The translations under genes were made by a program, and so were the position numbers. A DNA stretch of 29,197 bases, taken from IMG/VR virus record IMGVR_UViG_3300009695_000019, positions 1 through 29,197 of that record; one strand, given 5' to 3'. The notes under the pieces are model-generated. The model was given only the letters and a program-made list of their open reading frames with translations, made no database searches and was not told the DNA's origin. Positions 1-23,575 of the stretch are shown one piece after another. How positions within the stretch are numbered: position 1 is the stretch's first letter; each line of letters begins with the position of its first letter. Origin of the DNA: a virus.

Positions 1-509
1 CCGAGTTCGGGTCGATGTACGGCGCGGCGGTGATCAACGAATATCTGCGCAGCTATGCGCTCACCGCCGAGCTTGACCCCGCGCAGCTATGCGTTCGCGC
101 GCCCTTCACGTCGAGCACGGCCGCCGCGCTCCGGTTGAGCATGGGGCGCGCCGAGCAAGAGATTATCGAAGCGATCGAGGAAGGGCGGCCGGGGTTCGCT
201 GGTGGTTGGGTATCCTCGATCATGGTCGATCGGCTGCTAGACCAAATCCGCGCGGCCGTGCCGCGCACCAAGCGCCGCGAGATGCTACAGGCGCTCGGCT
301 ATGACTATCACCCCGGCCTCAACGACGGCCGCGTTCACAACCCCGTCGCCCCCGACAATGGCAAGCCGCGCCTCTACGTGCTGCGCGGGCATCTCTCGAC
401 CAACCTCACCGATGTTGCCGCGATCTGCAAAGCGTACACGGTCGCGCAGAACACCGTGACCAACGACGCGGCGGCGCTCAAATTCGGCGCGACCGCCAAC
501 GACAAATGA
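1..509 (+). CDS. C-terminal part of a larger phage protein, possibly a replication primase/helicase
   Basis: The reading frame is open from the first base (first full codon at 3), so this is the end of a gene that begins outside the window; the ATG at 15 is probably internal. The visible part is about 168 residues. Residues after about 100 (counted from that ATG) read LGYDYHP..., DGRVHNPV and GKPRLYVLRGH. From memory this pattern resembles the end of phage primase/helicase-type proteins (DUF5906-like), but no catalytic motif lies in the window, so the assignment is tentative. It ends in a TGA that overlaps the ATG of the next gene (ATGA), which implies translational coupling. A DNA-binding or other replication protein is possible. 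Confidence 0.5.
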   Translation, partial: EFGSMYGAAVINEYLRSYALTAELDPAQLCVRAPFTSSTAAALRLSMGRAEQEIIEAIEEGRPGFAGGWVSSIMVDRLLDQIRAAVPRTKRREMLQALGYDYHPGLNDGRVHNPVAPDNGKPRLYVLRGHLSTNLTDVAAICKAYTVAQNTVTNDAAALKFGATANDK

Positions 510-2955: not shown

Positions 2956-3263
2956 CCGACACCCCGCCCGCCCTCACCGCGCTCGGCGCGACGATCATCG
3001 AACGGCTCGCGGAAGCCGGGCAGATCACCGACAAGATGCAGGGTCCGGCGATCGGCATCCGGGCGCACGTCATCGGCGACGGCATTCGCATCCTTGGGGC
3101 CGCCCCGACGCCCAAGGGCACGCATACCGCCCAAACGATCGTATCATGGCCGGAGCTGATCGAGGCGACGGCAAACCCTCTCGTCGCGGCCATAGCGGGC
3201 ATTCACGGGCATTTGCTCGCGCCGTTTGGTCACGGGCTTCCTCCCGCCCAGGGCAGCGCGTGA
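2952..3263 (+). CDS. Hypothetical protein (103 aa)
   Basis: The ATG at 2952 overlaps the upstream stop (ATGA). The protein opens with a Pro/Thr-rich stretch and a helix (LGATIIERLAEAGQITDKM). It continues with a beta-like middle (IGIRAHVIGDGIRILGA) and ends with a His/Gly-rich apolar tail (GIHGHLLAPFGHG). No Cys and no recognised motif. Not recognised as a family. Co-translated with its neighbours on the evidence of the overlap. Confidence 0.5.
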   Translation: MTDTPPALTALGATIIERLAEAGQITDKMQGPAIGIRAHVIGDGIRILGAAPTPKGTHTAQTIVSWPELIEATANPLVAAIAGIHGHLLAPFGHGLPPAQGSA

Positions 3264-3267
3264 ACCC

Positions 3268-3546
3268 GTGACCAAACGGCGCGGCCCGTCGCGACCCTCC
3301 CGTGCCGCCTATGCGCGCGGCGCGCGGGCCGTCGCCGCTTATCGGAATGAAATCGCCAGCCTCACCACGCCCGCCGGGTTCGTCCCGCGCGGGCCGGTTG
3401 ACGATTGCGCTCGCACCCGCCGGGAGAGCGACGAGATTGTTTGCATATCGTGCGGCTTGCGTTGGGGCGTCGGCGAGGATCGACCGACTTGCCCGAAATT
3501 ACGCGATGACGAGATAATTTACGACACGCCGACGAGCGATGATTGA
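3268..3546 (+). CDS. Small basic protein with CISCG zinc knuckle
   Basis: A GTG at 3268 is the first sensible start after the upstream stop at 3263, giving 92 residues; an earlier in-frame start at 3226 would overlap the previous gene. The N-terminus is strongly basic (KRRGPSRPSRAAYARGARA). The C-terminus holds IVCISCGLRWG followed by PTCPKLR, giving three close Cys, and ends acidic. The CISCG core is the same as in the protein at 2542. The second half of the gene and the next gene are richer in A+T than the surroundings. Probably nucleic-acid binding, by charge; function unknown. Confidence 0.55.
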   Translation: MTKRRGPSRPSRAAYARGARAVAAYRNEIASLTTPAGFVPRGPVDDCARTRRESDEIVCISCGLRWGVGEDRPTCPKLRDDEIIYDTPTSDD

Positions 3547-3753: not shown

Positions 3754-3788
3754 TCCACCCCCATGCGGGCCGATTTACCCCGTACAAT

Positions 3789-3963
3789 CCTTAATTTACC
3801 CCGTATATAGGGGTATGGTCAAGTCGCTGTAATCGCTCGCGAACTTCCTTAAAATACCCCGTACCCCGTAGAAACGACCCCTTCGAGACAGGGCGCGCGT
3901 GCGCGCACGCATCGCGTGCACGTAGCAAAGTGGAAATGTACGGGGTATAGGGGTAAATTAAGG
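3789..3963. repeat. 14-base inverted repeat pair with nested dyad
   Basis: CCTTAATTTACCCC at 3789-3802 is repeated exactly on the other strand at 3950-3963. The left arm continues into TACCCC-N7-GGGGTA (3797-3815), itself a small dyad. The arms enclose two tandem TACCCCGTA units and a GC-rich palindrome. Confidence 0.8.
3893..3924. repeat. Alternating purine-pyrimidine GC palindrome
   Basis: Bases 3893-3912 alternate purine and pyrimidine without a break, and 3913-3924 continue after one step. GCGTGCGCGCACGC (3897-3910) is a perfect palindrome, and GCACGC/GCGTGC (3905-3910/3914-3919) form an alternative hairpin. Such tracts can adopt Z-DNA or cruciform structure under supercoiling. Confidence 0.75.
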
Positions 3964-3977
3964 AATATATCTAATAG

Positions 3978-4090
3978 TTTCAATAACTTAACTAATACCC
4001 CATAGTTAAAATCATGGGGGTAAAATGATAATTTATATCGAGCGTTTTCAATGACTTGCAATACCCCGTACTTAAAATCATGGGGGTAAA
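3978..4090 (+). repeat. Two long direct repeats (iteron-like), about 46 bases each
   Basis: Units at 3978-4024 and 4046-4090 share TTTCAAT-ACTT, AATACCCC-TA and an identical 19-base block, TTAAAATCATGGGGGTAAA (4006-4024 and 4072-4090). Each unit contains an internal TACCCC...GGGGTA dyad. The starts are 68 bases apart. Confidence 0.85.
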
Positions 4091-4175
4091 CGGGGGAAAT
4101 TATCGAAATTATCCGAAATCGTGAGCGTGATCAGCACTTGCCGATGCGATCAATTTCCTCGATACGATCAGCGTC

Positions 4176-4916
4176 ATGCCAGCCCTCGAAAACCCGCTAC
4201 ACGAAAAATACTGCCAGCTTGCGGCGGTCGATAGCTATGCGAACGCTTTTCGCGCCACATACGGGCAGGGGCAGCGCACGGTTAAGACGATGAATACCGA
4301 AATCTGGCGGCTCAACGGGCGGGCGGATATTTCGCGGAGAATTACCGAAATTCAGGCCGCCGCCGCTGCGCCGTTGAATGCGACGCGCGAGTGGTTGCTT
4401 GCCTGGTGGTTTGGGCGGATGATGTACGACCCGGCCGAAATTACGGCTTGGGCGATCGACGCTTGCCGTCACTGCCACGGCGATAATTTCGGCTATCAAT
4501 GGACGCTCGCGGAATTCGATCGAGCGTGCGCCGACGCCGAGATGACGAAAGCCCCCTTGCCCGATATCGGCGGCGGCTTCGGTTTCGATCCGCGACGCGG
4601 CCCCAACCCCGACTGCCCGGAGTGCCACGGGCGCGGGCGCGGCCGATCTGACATTGCCGACACGCGCGAGTTGTCTCCCGCCGCCCGCGCCGCTTTCGAG
4701 GGTATCAAGGAAACGCGCAACGGCATCGAAATCAAGATGGCCGATAAGGGACAGGCGGCCGAACAGTTCGCCAAGCTCTCCGGCTTCGATATCGCCCAAG
4801 TGCGCTTGCTCACCGACCCGATACCGAGCGATGCCGAGCTTGATCGTCTATCGCTTGATCCGGTCGCCATAGCCGCCGCGTACAAGCGTTTCGTCAATGG
4901 CGGGGCGATGCACTAG
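4176..4916 (+). CDS. terS: Terminase small subunit
   Basis: A 246-residue protein. TerS binds phage DNA and hands it to the large subunit for packaging. Residues 1-65 carry the N-terminal DNA-binding helices (HEKYCQLAAVDSYANAFRATYG ... TMNTEIWRLNGR). A cysteine insert follows, with CRHCHGD at 97-102 and CPECHGRG at 147-154, framing YQWTLAEF and GGFGFDP; this is characteristic of a known TerS family in myophages and Mu-like prophages. Residues 171-206 (AAFEGIKETRNGIEIKMAD) match the conserved C-terminal region. The start has only a weak ribosome site; no better ATG exists in frame. Unusually, terL is not adjacent: a three-gene cassette lies between. The upstream repeats may include its binding site. 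Confidence 0.88.
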   Translation: MPALENPLHEKYCQLAAVDSYANAFRATYGQGQRTVKTMNTEIWRLNGRADISRRITEIQAAAAAPLNATREWLLAWWFGRMMYDPAEITAWAIDACRHCHGDNFGYQWTLAEFDRACADAEMTKAPLPDIGGGFGFDPRRGPNPDCPECHGRGRGRSDIADTRELSPAARAAFEGIKETRNGIEIKMADKGQAAEQFAKLSGFDIAQVRLLTDPIPSDAELDRLSLDPVAIAAAYKRFVNGGAMH

Positions 4917-13111: not shown

Positions 13112-14179
13112 ATGCGTCGTGAAGAAATCGATATCCTTGCCGCTCGCGGCATCATCCCGGCAATGGCAATGGATGCCCTTTTGCGGATGGAATATGTCGG
13201 CATGACCGGCCGCGTCGAGGATGCAATGCCTTGGCGTCAGAACTTTCAGCTCGCGATGGACGCGCAGCCGACGTTGATCACGGCACCGAATGCGGGCATC
13301 CCCGCGTTCCTGACGAACATGATCGACCCGGAAGTCATTCGCATCCTGGTTGCCCCGATGCGCGCCGCCGAGATTTACGGCGAGACGAAAAAGGGCACTT
13401 GGACCGATCTTTCGGCGCAGTTCCCCGTGATCGAGGCGACCGGCGAAACGTCGAGCTATGGCGATTTCAACAACAACGGCTCGACCGGCGCGAACGTCAA
13501 TTGGGTTGCGCGTCAATCGTACCATTTCCAGACCGTAAGCCAGTGGGGCGAGCGCGAGCTTGAAATGTATGGCGTCGCCAAGATCAATTACGCGAGCGAA
13601 ATCAACGTCTCGTCGGCGCTTGTGCTGAACAAGTTCCTGAACAAGTCGTATTTCTTCGGCGTCGGGCTGCTCGCCAATTATGGCGGCATCAACGACCCGT
13701 CGCTTATCGCGCCGATCATGCCGAGCACCAAGATCGCGGGCGGCGTGTCGTGGGATAATGCGACCGCGCAAGAAATCTATAACGACGTGCTCGCGCTGTT
13801 CGGGCAGCTCCAAACCCAAATGGCGGGCTTGGTGCCCGATATGGACGTCAAGATGACGCTCGCGCTCTCGCCGGTGAAGGCCGTGCAGCTCAAGCGCGTG
13901 TCGATCTACAACGTCACCGCCGAAGAAACGATCAAGGGGAATTTTCCGAACCTCACGATCAAGACGGCACCGGAGTTTTCGACCCAGGCCGGGGAGCTTA
14001 TGCAGCTCGTCTTGGACGAGGTTGACGGCACGCGCACGACCTATTCGGCCTTTACCGAAAAGATGCGCGCGCATCCGGTCATTCCCGATATGTCGAGCTG
14101 GAAACAGAAAAAGAGCGCCGGCACGTGGGGCACGATCATCCGTCGCCCGATCTGCATCGCGCAGATGCTCGGCATCTGA
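13112..14179 (+). CDS. Major capsid protein (DUF2184 type)
   Basis: A 355-residue protein expected to have the HK97 fold and make up the icosahedral shell. Typical family segments are FLTNMIDPEVIRILVAPMRAAE, GTWTDLSAQFPVIEATG, the variant loop SSYGDFNNNGSTGANVNWV, and a C-terminal IRRPICIAQMLGI. The N-terminus (REEIDILAARGIIPAMAMDALL) has no obvious long scaffold-like prodomain, in keeping with a separate scaffold in the previous gene. It starts with a GAGGGG site upstream and is followed by a stable hairpin at 14192. Confidence 0.88.
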   Translation: MRREEIDILAARGIIPAMAMDALLRMEYVGMTGRVEDAMPWRQNFQLAMDAQPTLITAPNAGIPAFLTNMIDPEVIRILVAPMRAAEIYGETKKGTWTDLSAQFPVIEATGETSSYGDFNNNGSTGANVNWVARQSYHFQTVSQWGERELEMYGVAKINYASEINVSSALVLNKFLNKSYFFGVGLLANYGGINDPSLIAPIMPSTKIAGGVSWDNATAQEIYNDVLALFGQLQTQMAGLVPDMDVKMTLALSPVKAVQLKRVSIYNVTAEETIKGNFPNLTIKTAPEFSTQAGELMQLVLDEVDGTRTTYSAFTEKMRAHPVIPDMSSWKQKKSAGTWGTIIRRPICIAQMLGI

Positions 14180-22042: not shown

Positions 22043-22932
22043 TGACGTTCGTCAAGCGCCGCATCACCCTTCAATTTCAGCTCGGTCAAGGGTCGTTCGG
22101 CGAGAGCGGCAACGACACGATCGAGGTTAGCGGCGTGCGCTGTTCGGCGTCGATGACCAAGGGCGGCGGCGTCGGGCTTACCGAGCTGAATTTACGTGTC
22201 TTCGGCCTTGAACTCGACGTGATGAATAAGCTCACCATTCTCGGCAAGCCGTTGGTCGATGGTCGCAACAATAAAGTCGTGGTGAGCGCGGGCGACGTTG
22301 GCGGGGCGCTCTCGGTCGTATTCGCGGGCACGATAATCGAGGCTTGGGTTGATGCCCGAAATAGCCCCCAAGTCGCGTTTCTCGTCAGTGCGCAAGATGG
22401 CGCATTGATGGCGCTTAAGCCGGTCATCCCGGTGAGCTTCAAGGGGTCGGTCGATGCCGCCCAAGTCGTCAGCTACATCGCGCAGCAAGCGGGCATGGGG
22501 TTTGAAAATGGCGGCGTGTCGGTGCAGCTCGACAATCCCTATCTCCCGAACACGACTCTTGAACAGCTCCAAAGCATCGCGCGCGCGGGGCAGTTCAATT
22601 GCGTGATCGAGACGACCGATACCGGCAACGGCACGGTCGTCATTTGGCCGTTCGATAAGCCCCGGCCGGGAAAGGTGCCGTTGATTTCGCCTGAAACCGG
22701 GCTGATCGGTTACCCCATGCGAACGCAAAACGGTATTCAGCTTATGACGCTGTTCAACCCGGCGATCATTTTCGGCGGCCAAATCCAAGTGAAAAGCGAT
22801 CTGACACCGGCGAACGGCGGATGGACGGTATTCCGCGTGACGCACGATCTTGAAGCCGAGACGCCGGGCGGCAAATGGTTTACGACAATGGAATGCTCTT
22901 TGCTCGGTCAAGAGGTTCCGGTTGGTGAGTGA
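22042..22932 (+). CDS. Baseplate hub protein
   Basis: A 296-residue protein. The ATG at 22042 overlaps the upstream stop (TGATG); a GTG at 22039 would add one residue. Hub-like pattern: RRITLQFQLGQGSFGESGNDTIEVSG, SMTKGGGVGLTELNLRVFGL, VFAGTIIEAWVDARNSPQVAFLVSAQDG, AAQVVSYIAQQAGMGFENGGV, and TLEQLQSIARAGQFNCVI (a LysM-like/gpD-like helical piece). The C-terminus (RVTHDLEAETPGGKWFTTMECSL) is the common end of gpD-type hubs. It would hold the spike, which is the next gene. Confidence 0.8.
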   Translation: MTFVKRRITLQFQLGQGSFGESGNDTIEVSGVRCSASMTKGGGVGLTELNLRVFGLELDVMNKLTILGKPLVDGRNNKVVVSAGDVGGALSVVFAGTIIEAWVDARNSPQVAFLVSAQDGALMALKPVIPVSFKGSVDAAQVVSYIAQQAGMGFENGGVSVQLDNPYLPNTTLEQLQSIARAGQFNCVIETTDTGNGTVVIWPFDKPRPGKVPLISPETGLIGYPMRTQNGIQLMTLFNPAIIFGGQIQVKSDLTPANGGWTVFRVTHDLEAETPGGKWFTTMECSLLGQEVPVGE

Positions 22933-23575
22933 CGATCGTTCCTATGCGGGCACGCAACAGCTATCGAGCGCCGCCAGCGACTATAATCAGATCGACTATA
23001 TCGTGCGCTCGATCATGGCGCGCAACGCGACGGCGACGCTCGTCATCGTCAAAACCGTGACCAATGACGGCGAGGTTTCGCCCGTGGGGCTGATCGACGT
23101 GCAACCGATGGTCGCGCAGCTCGACGGCAAGGGACAGGCGACGCCGCACGGCATCATTCACAACGTCCCCTATTTCCGCGTCCAAGGCGGCACGAACGCG
23201 ATCATCATCGACCCCAAGGTGGGGGATATCGGAATTGCGCTTTTCGCGTCGCACGACATATCGAGCGTGAAGGCGAACAAAGCTCCGGCTAACCCCGGCT
23301 CGCGCCGCCGCTTCGATATGGCCGATGCGCTTTATATCGGCGGGATGCTGAACGGCACGCCGGAGCAATATATCCGCTTTCTCTCGAATGGTGATATCGA
23401 GCTGAAACCGGCGACGATGGTCACGGTGCTCGGCAAGCTGCACGTCACCGATGACGTGACGGTCGATACCAAGATCACCGCGACGAACGATGTGATCGGC
23501 GGCGGCAAGCATCTCGCGACGCATACGCACTCCGGCGTCACTGGCGGCGGCGGAACGTCCGGCCCGCCGAGTTAA
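22925..23575 (+). CDS. Baseplate spike / central spike protein (Gp138 N-terminal type)
   Basis: A 216-residue protein. The GTG at 22925 gives an 8-base overlap with the hub; the longer frame from 22850 lies over it. Residues 25-110 are an OB-fold with Gp138-type motifs: ARNATATLVIVKTVTNDGEVSPVGLIDVQP, then GKGQATPHGIIHNVPYFRVQGG and PKVGDIGIALFASHDIS. Residues 150-190 form a beta-helical stalk (GDIELKPATMVTVLGKLHVTDDV). The tip has His196, His200 and His202 (HLATHTHSGV), as in metal-binding spike tips. Trimers would pierce the outer membrane. Its stop codon overlaps the stop of the opposite-strand gene. Confidence 0.85.
   Translation: MSDDRSYAGTQQLSSAASDYNQIDYIVRSIMARNATATLVIVKTVTNDGEVSPVGLIDVQPMVAQLDGKGQATPHGIIHNVPYFRVQGGTNAIIIDPKVGDIGIALFASHDISSVKANKAPANPGSRRRFDMADALYIGGMLNGTPEQYIRFLSNGDIELKPATMVTVLGKLHVTDDVTVDTKITATNDVIGGGKHLATHTHSGVTGGGGTSGPPS

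Follow-up and report, generated by a model that had tools for sequence, protein, structure and literature searches.

A conserved iteron array before the small terminase gene as a candidate replication origin of phages encoding an NrS-1-type primase-polymerase-helicase

Introduction

The replicon of phage P4 combines a primase-helicase initiator and iterons with two cis sites, ori and crr. At the packaging sites P1 pac and lambda cos, short repeats lie on both sides of a centre, together with IHF sites, near a terminase gene. The origin of SaPIbov1, as treated by Ubeda et al. in 2012, is said to have a symmetric layout. SaPI origins lie directly after rep, and SaPI Rep and SCCmec Cch2, which are thought to work as two hexamers, bind iterons by their C-terminal domain, the SCCmec Cch2 origin being putative (PMC7581432). 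The NrS-1 primase-polymerase recognizes an 8-nt site, TTTGGTTA, which is reported in only two copies and has been proposed as the origin (PMC7102993, PMC8718748). Our literature search returned no paper joining Jedunavirus with an origin of replication.

Here, we describe a repeat array at positions 3754–4175 of a viral DNA stretch of 29,197 nucleotides (the window; IMG/VR record IMGVR_UViG_3300009695_000019, positions 1 to 29,197), a linear fragment of a phage with a tail sheath gene, which holds one such array. An earlier note on this DNA offered a packaging site, an origin, or a control array as options; the comparisons reported below favor the origin and disfavor the packaging site. We put at roughly two in three the probability that the array is a SaPI-type origin of replication built on iterons, which the primase-helicase of the phage itself would open.

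Results and Discussion

Composition and Anatomy of the Array

The word TACCCCGTA occurs six times in the window by exact count, and all six copies fall within 3754–4175 (plus strand at 3776, 3797, 3855, 3862, and 4062; minus strand at 3939). The same region holds 11 of the 16 window copies of TACCCC, with five across the rest of the 29,197 bases. In 1000 dinucleotide shuffles of the region, TACCCCGTA averaged 0.017 copies (maximum 1) and TACCCC 0.46 (maximum 4); a short iteron is thus present in multiple copies (11 TACCCC vs. 0.46 shuffled). The longest exact repeat across the shuffles was 13 bases, vs. 19 observed: the block TTAAAATCATGGGGGTAAA lies at 4006–4024 and again at 4072–4090, within a 31-mer pair (94%) that is preceded by a 24-mer pair (75%), at a spacing of 66–68 bases. 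Inverted repeats of 14 nt (86% complementary) and 20 nt (90% complementary) are also present, and in repeated 9-mers the region is the richest among same-size stretches of the window.

The earlier note had reported a repeat density above chance, long direct repeats sharing an identical 19-base block, and a 14-base inverted repeat, all of which these counts bear out. It had also described the region as AT-rich and gene-free: GC content is 46%, vs. about 60% for the window, no recognized gene lies in the region, and the sole open reading frame encodes 70 amino acids on the minus strand (3849–4061). Scans of the array region for tRNAs and Rfam families gave no match. Evenly stepped GATCA, to which the note had drawn attention, does exist (4129, 4148, and 4166) but is not notable, because GATCA occurs 142 times in the window.

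The organization is broader than the note had it, in that inverted clusters are arranged about a centre at approximately 3892–3924. By word and repeat counts, an outer left cluster (3776–3815) comprises TACCCCGTA at 3776 and 3797 (both plus) and TACCCC at 3810 (minus). The tandem 9-mer of the note is an overlapping plus-strand pair of period 7, TACCCCGTACCCCGTA (3855–3870; copies at 3855 and 3862), which aligns as a core pair in seven relatives. The centre is an alternating pyrimidine-purine tract with CGTA at its end, the latter invariant in alignment A4. On its other side, repeat counts and alignment identify the core right pair, TACGGGGTATAGGGGTA (3939–3955; copies at 3939 and 3950), in inverted orientation on the minus strand. 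Two modules of similar build make up the remainder of the right half, with an IHF-like site leading into an inverted pair in both: a consensus scan places TTTCAATAACTTA at 3978–3990 (plus; one mismatch to WATCAANNNNTTR), followed by module 1 at 3996–4022 (TACCCCATA at 3996, plus; GGGGTA at 4017, minus), and TTTCAATGACTTG at 4046–4058 (plus; one mismatch), followed by module 2 at 4062–4088 (TACCCCGTA at 4062, plus; GGGGTA at 4083, minus), which duplicates module 1. By nearest-neighbor stability, no 50 bp of the window are weaker than 3946–3995 (rank 1), an easily melted stretch that is a candidate unwinding element. We rejected a telomere-resolution site, for which the long central palindrome is absent.

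Neighboring Genes and the Candidate Initiator

The window opens with the C-terminal piece (15–509, plus strand; 164 aa) of an NrS-1-type primase-polymerase-helicase, cut by the window edge and 72% identical to the end of a 798-aa protein on a related contig, L003; this piece is the proposed iteron-binding end. The L003 protein carries the Pfam NrS-1 HBD and DUF5906 domains and matches PHROG phrog_1829 (DNA primase); PF22763 and PF19263 are present in the enzymes of both L002 and L003, the window showing the C-terminal piece only. The model of the L003 enzyme has matches to NrS-1 polymerase (6k9c, E 1e-14; 6jop, E 3e-14) and, at E about 1e-7 to 1e-6, the SaPI5 primase-helicase (7ola, E 1.4e-7; 7pds, with dsDNA, E 8e-7), so that, through this relative, the candidate initiator is related to the SaPI Rep and SCC Cch2 helicases. 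On the domains and fold of these relatives, we assign the window enzyme, seen as its C-terminal piece, to the NrS-1-type PrimPols with an HBD and a C-terminal helicase. The model of the window's C-terminal domain (pLDDT 76) has winged-helix proteins as its best matches, all weak (Z ≤ 5.0), with none standing out. The NrS-1 priming word TTTGGTTA has no copy in the window, although the word may differ between phages.

A search with the enzyme gave 14 loci, some of them on contigs already known, and 505 phage records. Just upstream of the primase-helicase, all 13 contigs tested (L086–L099) encode a small TetR-like helix-turn-helix (HTH) protein, phrog_8723; weaker extra matches follow terS in L092, L093, and L095.

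Between the enzyme and the array, the window encodes a Mom-like DNA modification protein (901–1377; phrog_1384, E 3e-16). A small protein also lies between the primase-helicase and the array in the window (3226–3546), L002 (4829–5278), L003 (4671–5201), and L101 (about 22750–22940), with a common zinc-ribbon-like end, GDExxCxxCxLRWxxxExxPxC; a similar end occurs in phage Scuro. The small terminase gene terS (4176–4916, plus strand; phrog_51, E 3.4e-10) adjoins the array on the right, outside the proposed origin. At the left edge of arrays, HNH, IceA-like, or repeated zinc-ribbon genes are found, often divergent (phrog_20468, phrog_1081; L101 27126–27902, L103 24639–25130, L104 25350–25919, L156 4950–5795, and L007 3729–4346). 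The bordering HNH and IceA-like genes in some relatives, and the fact that arrays can be duplicated, would suit another kind of recombination or segregation site, serving partition or resolution or being the target of the neighboring HNH genes. However, the annotation of the isolates read shows neither a partition nor an integrase gene next to the arrays, and the window centre, when read through, has no long perfect palindrome; we regard such a site as very improbable, the least likely of the readings considered here.

Arrays in Related Phages

TerS and TerL searches yielded 84 loci, among which TACCCCGTA arrays precede terS in L002, L003, L011, L013, L014, and L021. The same layout is built from other words elsewhere: TTCCCCGTTAA in L006, a GGGGGTA version in L007, TAGGTGTA in L010, TACCCCGA in L093, TTCCCCGTAT in L094, TTCCGGTATA in L095, and GCCAGTACGTACTGGC in L092; GTGACGTTA, GGGACGATA, and others are further words of such arrays. 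The relatives share motif clusters that face opposite ways about a centre, along with IHF-like sites and a duplex stretch of very low stability; when seven arrays are aligned, their core pairs and the last part of the centre prove conserved. IHF-like sites number 20 in 17 arrays, vs. 6.2 by shuffling, which is suggestive, the consensus having been picked after the sequences were seen. A second repeated element, AAAGCCTTACGCCACAAGGGTTTGC, occurs in the arrays of L095 (15600–16050; up to four copies), L093 (9825–10105), and L094 (8095–8255); in L092, it seems to form an extension of the IHF-like element.

Among isolates, an array lies upstream of the first late gene in MEW1, LAPP1, Scuro, MSW-3, B2, and SppYZU01. 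BcepC6B and Acinetobacter phage 4316 (Ab4316) have a minimal dyad immediately after the primase gene, in the position that SaPI origins take relative to rep, so that two iteron sets flanking a meltable region, which the window has as inverted clusters, recur there in minimal form. The BcepC6B record (NC_005887.1) was opened inside the dyad, the halves of which lie at 42411–42415 and 1–110. In OLIVR4 and L096, the enzyme is present and no array is recognizable.

The earlier note had named the absence of the repeats from relatives as a result that would speak against its reading. The architecture is in fact kept, whereas the motif varies and the 19-base block is unconserved: exact searches of viral_contigs for this block, which the note had proposed to seek in relatives, gave no match, as did those for TACCCCGTATATAGGGGTA, the inverted pair, since sequence diverges under a constant layout. 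A DNA similarity search likewise found nothing in plasmids and, among phages, only BcepC6B, within terS. A motif that differs between phages is as expected for cognate initiator-origin pairs.

The Array Accompanies the Enzyme Rather Than the Terminase

BcepC6B, Ab4316, L002, L003, and L006 were among the genomes picked up by a strict dyad detector, which passed over the window and several degenerate arrays and also produced stray matches elsewhere; motif-blind density and stability tests were therefore used. Inverted-repeat density upstream of terS or the first late gene reached at least the 95th percentile in 14 of 20 enzyme-positive phages vs. none of 13 enzyme-negative ones (Fisher 5e-5), the latter having related terminases (F116, Itty13, DC1, Parlo, yong1, YenM_29.18, L036, L039, L044, L060, L061, L082, and L004). 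The sequence upstream of the first late gene contained the least or second-least stable 50-mer in 19/19 enzyme-positive phages (leaving out OLIVR4 and L096, which have no recognizable array) vs. 2/13 enzyme-negative phages (Fisher 6e-7); in GC-rich phages the least stable stretch lies beside the centre, not within it. These P values are optimistic, since the phages are related to one another and most of the enzyme-positive ones came under study through the finding of an array or the enzyme. Cleaner evidence comes from BcepC6B and phage 4316, which entered through TerS and whose arrays were read before the enzyme was tested.

These comparisons bear on whether the array is instead a packaging site (pac or cos), at which TerS and IHF would bind the repeats and TerL would cut near the centre, as at P1 pac or lambda cos. 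The array is directly upstream of terS, which starts at 4176, and its two-sided clusters with interposed IHF-like sites resemble P1 pac and lambda cos. Yet no array was seen before terS in the 13 phages with related terminases that lack the primase-helicase, whereas the array accompanies at least four TerL classes, including the lambda-type phrog_15 of Scuro and SppYZU01. Nor does the motif follow TerS: L006 TerS is 57% identical to that of the window and its motif differs, whereas the TerS proteins of L011 and L021 are 37–40% identical and their motif is common to the window. We therefore rejected TerS as the repeat binder, given this disagreement between motif and TerS similarity and the 0/13 enzyme-negative phages with an array. 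A packaging site would furthermore be expected once per genome, and MEW1, LAPP1, and MSW-3 have two arrays. Because of the enzyme-negative relatives without an array, the lambda-type TerL phages with one, and the two-array isolates, the packaging reading is disfavored, and we consider it improbable.

Separately, in enterobacterial prophages that have a related TerS and lack the primase-helicase, prophage-specific 7–8-base repeats lie inside terS, in its 5′ part (L036, L044, and L060, GGTACGCA; L039 and L061, GGTTCGCA; L112, TGCGAAT; L082, CTGCGCA). They adjoin the region encoding an extra N-terminal HTH of TerS and are possible candidates for pac sites.

Second Arrays and Late Genes

Second, diverged arrays are present in the records of MEW1 (L103; 3646–3886), LAPP1 (about 113–400), and MSW-3 (about 13650–13910), where they precede neck or tail genes; in MEW1 the second array falls exactly at the return to the late strand past the minus-strand genes. 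No other place in these genomes is as unstable as the two arrays.

The array might thus be a late-transcription control region, possibly overlapping an origin, in which the repeats bind a phage regulator, such as the phrog_8723 HTH protein, that would turn on the terS operon and, in phages with two arrays, further late genes. Consistent with this, the array always precedes the first late gene, whatever the terminase, the second arrays of MEW1, LAPP1, and MSW-3 precede neck or tail genes, and the phrog_8723 gene precedes the enzyme in 13/13 contigs. However, phrog_8723 has no match in BcepC6B or Acinetobacter phage 4316, both of which carry the dyad, a promoter scan of the region was at chance (3 vs. 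1.5), and a promoter region needs no eleven sites in one large dyad. The position of arrays before both the first and other late genes speaks for a late-control role, alone or with an origin, which we rate as unlikely, somewhat less so than a packaging site.

A Proposed Replication Origin

The preferred reading, a replication origin, draws on how the array is built and kept in relatives, on its association with the enzyme under varied terminases, and on the weak duplex. We envisage that phage-specific iterons of 9–10 bases, in inverted clusters flanking the centre, would be bound on both sides by the C-terminal domain of the NrS-1-type primase-polymerase-helicase, and that IHF would bend the DNA between the clusters. 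The weakest duplex (3946–3995) would then open and helicase rings would load, upon which the fused primase-polymerase domain would begin DNA synthesis and the origin would fire. We take SaPI Rep and SCCmec Cch2 as the model for an initiator that would occupy both clusters, melt the weak stretch, and prime there.

Several observations count against an origin. For the window phage, as for most of its relatives, the array immediately precedes the first late gene, a position that an origin does not require, and is separated from the enzyme gene by 2–5 kb; the window array is 3.2 kb downstream and so does not immediately follow the initiator gene, unlike the dyads of BcepC6B and Ab4316. Second arrays precede other late genes, and OLIVR4 and L096 carry the enzyme with no recognized array. 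Additionally, GC skew in eight complete genomes was uninformative (P 0.42; the MEW1 position tested was its second array), the winged-helix assignment is weak, and TTTGGTTA is absent from the window.

More tentatively, and in our view rather unlikely, the arrays may represent an unrecognized origin class of NrS-1-type primase-polymerase phages: the enzyme would bind the iterons and prime de novo there, the word would be fast-changing and phage-specific, and some phages would have two origins tied to late blocks, coupling replication to late transcription.

NrS-1-type primase-polymerases, which need no primer to begin DNA synthesis, have been studied as enzymes, whereas for their phage origin the cited papers offer a conjecture. 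With a recognizable array conserved in many phages, among them isolates from cultured Klebsiella, Acinetobacter, Edwardsiella, Stenotrophomonas, and Burkholderia hosts, the origin question is accessible to direct experiment. The comparisons also urge caution, in that a repeat array beside terS need not mark a packaging site.

Comparison With Known Systems

P1 pac and lambda cos share with the array two-sided short repeats, IHF or IHF-like sites, and a terminase gene nearby; unlike these sites, the array does not track the terminase family and can occur twice per genome. The two cis sites of P4 resemble the two arrays of MEW1, LAPP1, and MSW-3, whereas the window has one array in its sequenced part, and the likeness is to P4 as generally described. 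With the NrS-1 replicon, the window phage shares an enzyme of the same family by HBD domain and fold; unlike that replicon, it has eleven copies of another word and no TTTGGTTA.

The window array differs from SaPI origins in lying 3.2 kb downstream of the enzyme gene, beside terS, in having 9–10-base iterons in a much larger dyad with IHF-like sites, and in its enzyme, an NrS-1-type primase-polymerase fusion; some of the phages have two arrays. The array resembles a SaPI-type origin, but since it does not adjoin the initiator gene on the downstream side, and its binding by the initiator is putative, we set it apart from the members of that type. What it has in common with SaPI (SaPIbov1, SaPI5) and SCCmec Cch2 is short iteron sets on either side of the region to be melted, an iteron of its own for each element, a helicase initiator with a C-terminal domain, which in the window phage is a candidate iteron binder, and an enzyme model, that of L003, matching the SaPI5 structures 7ola and 7pds.
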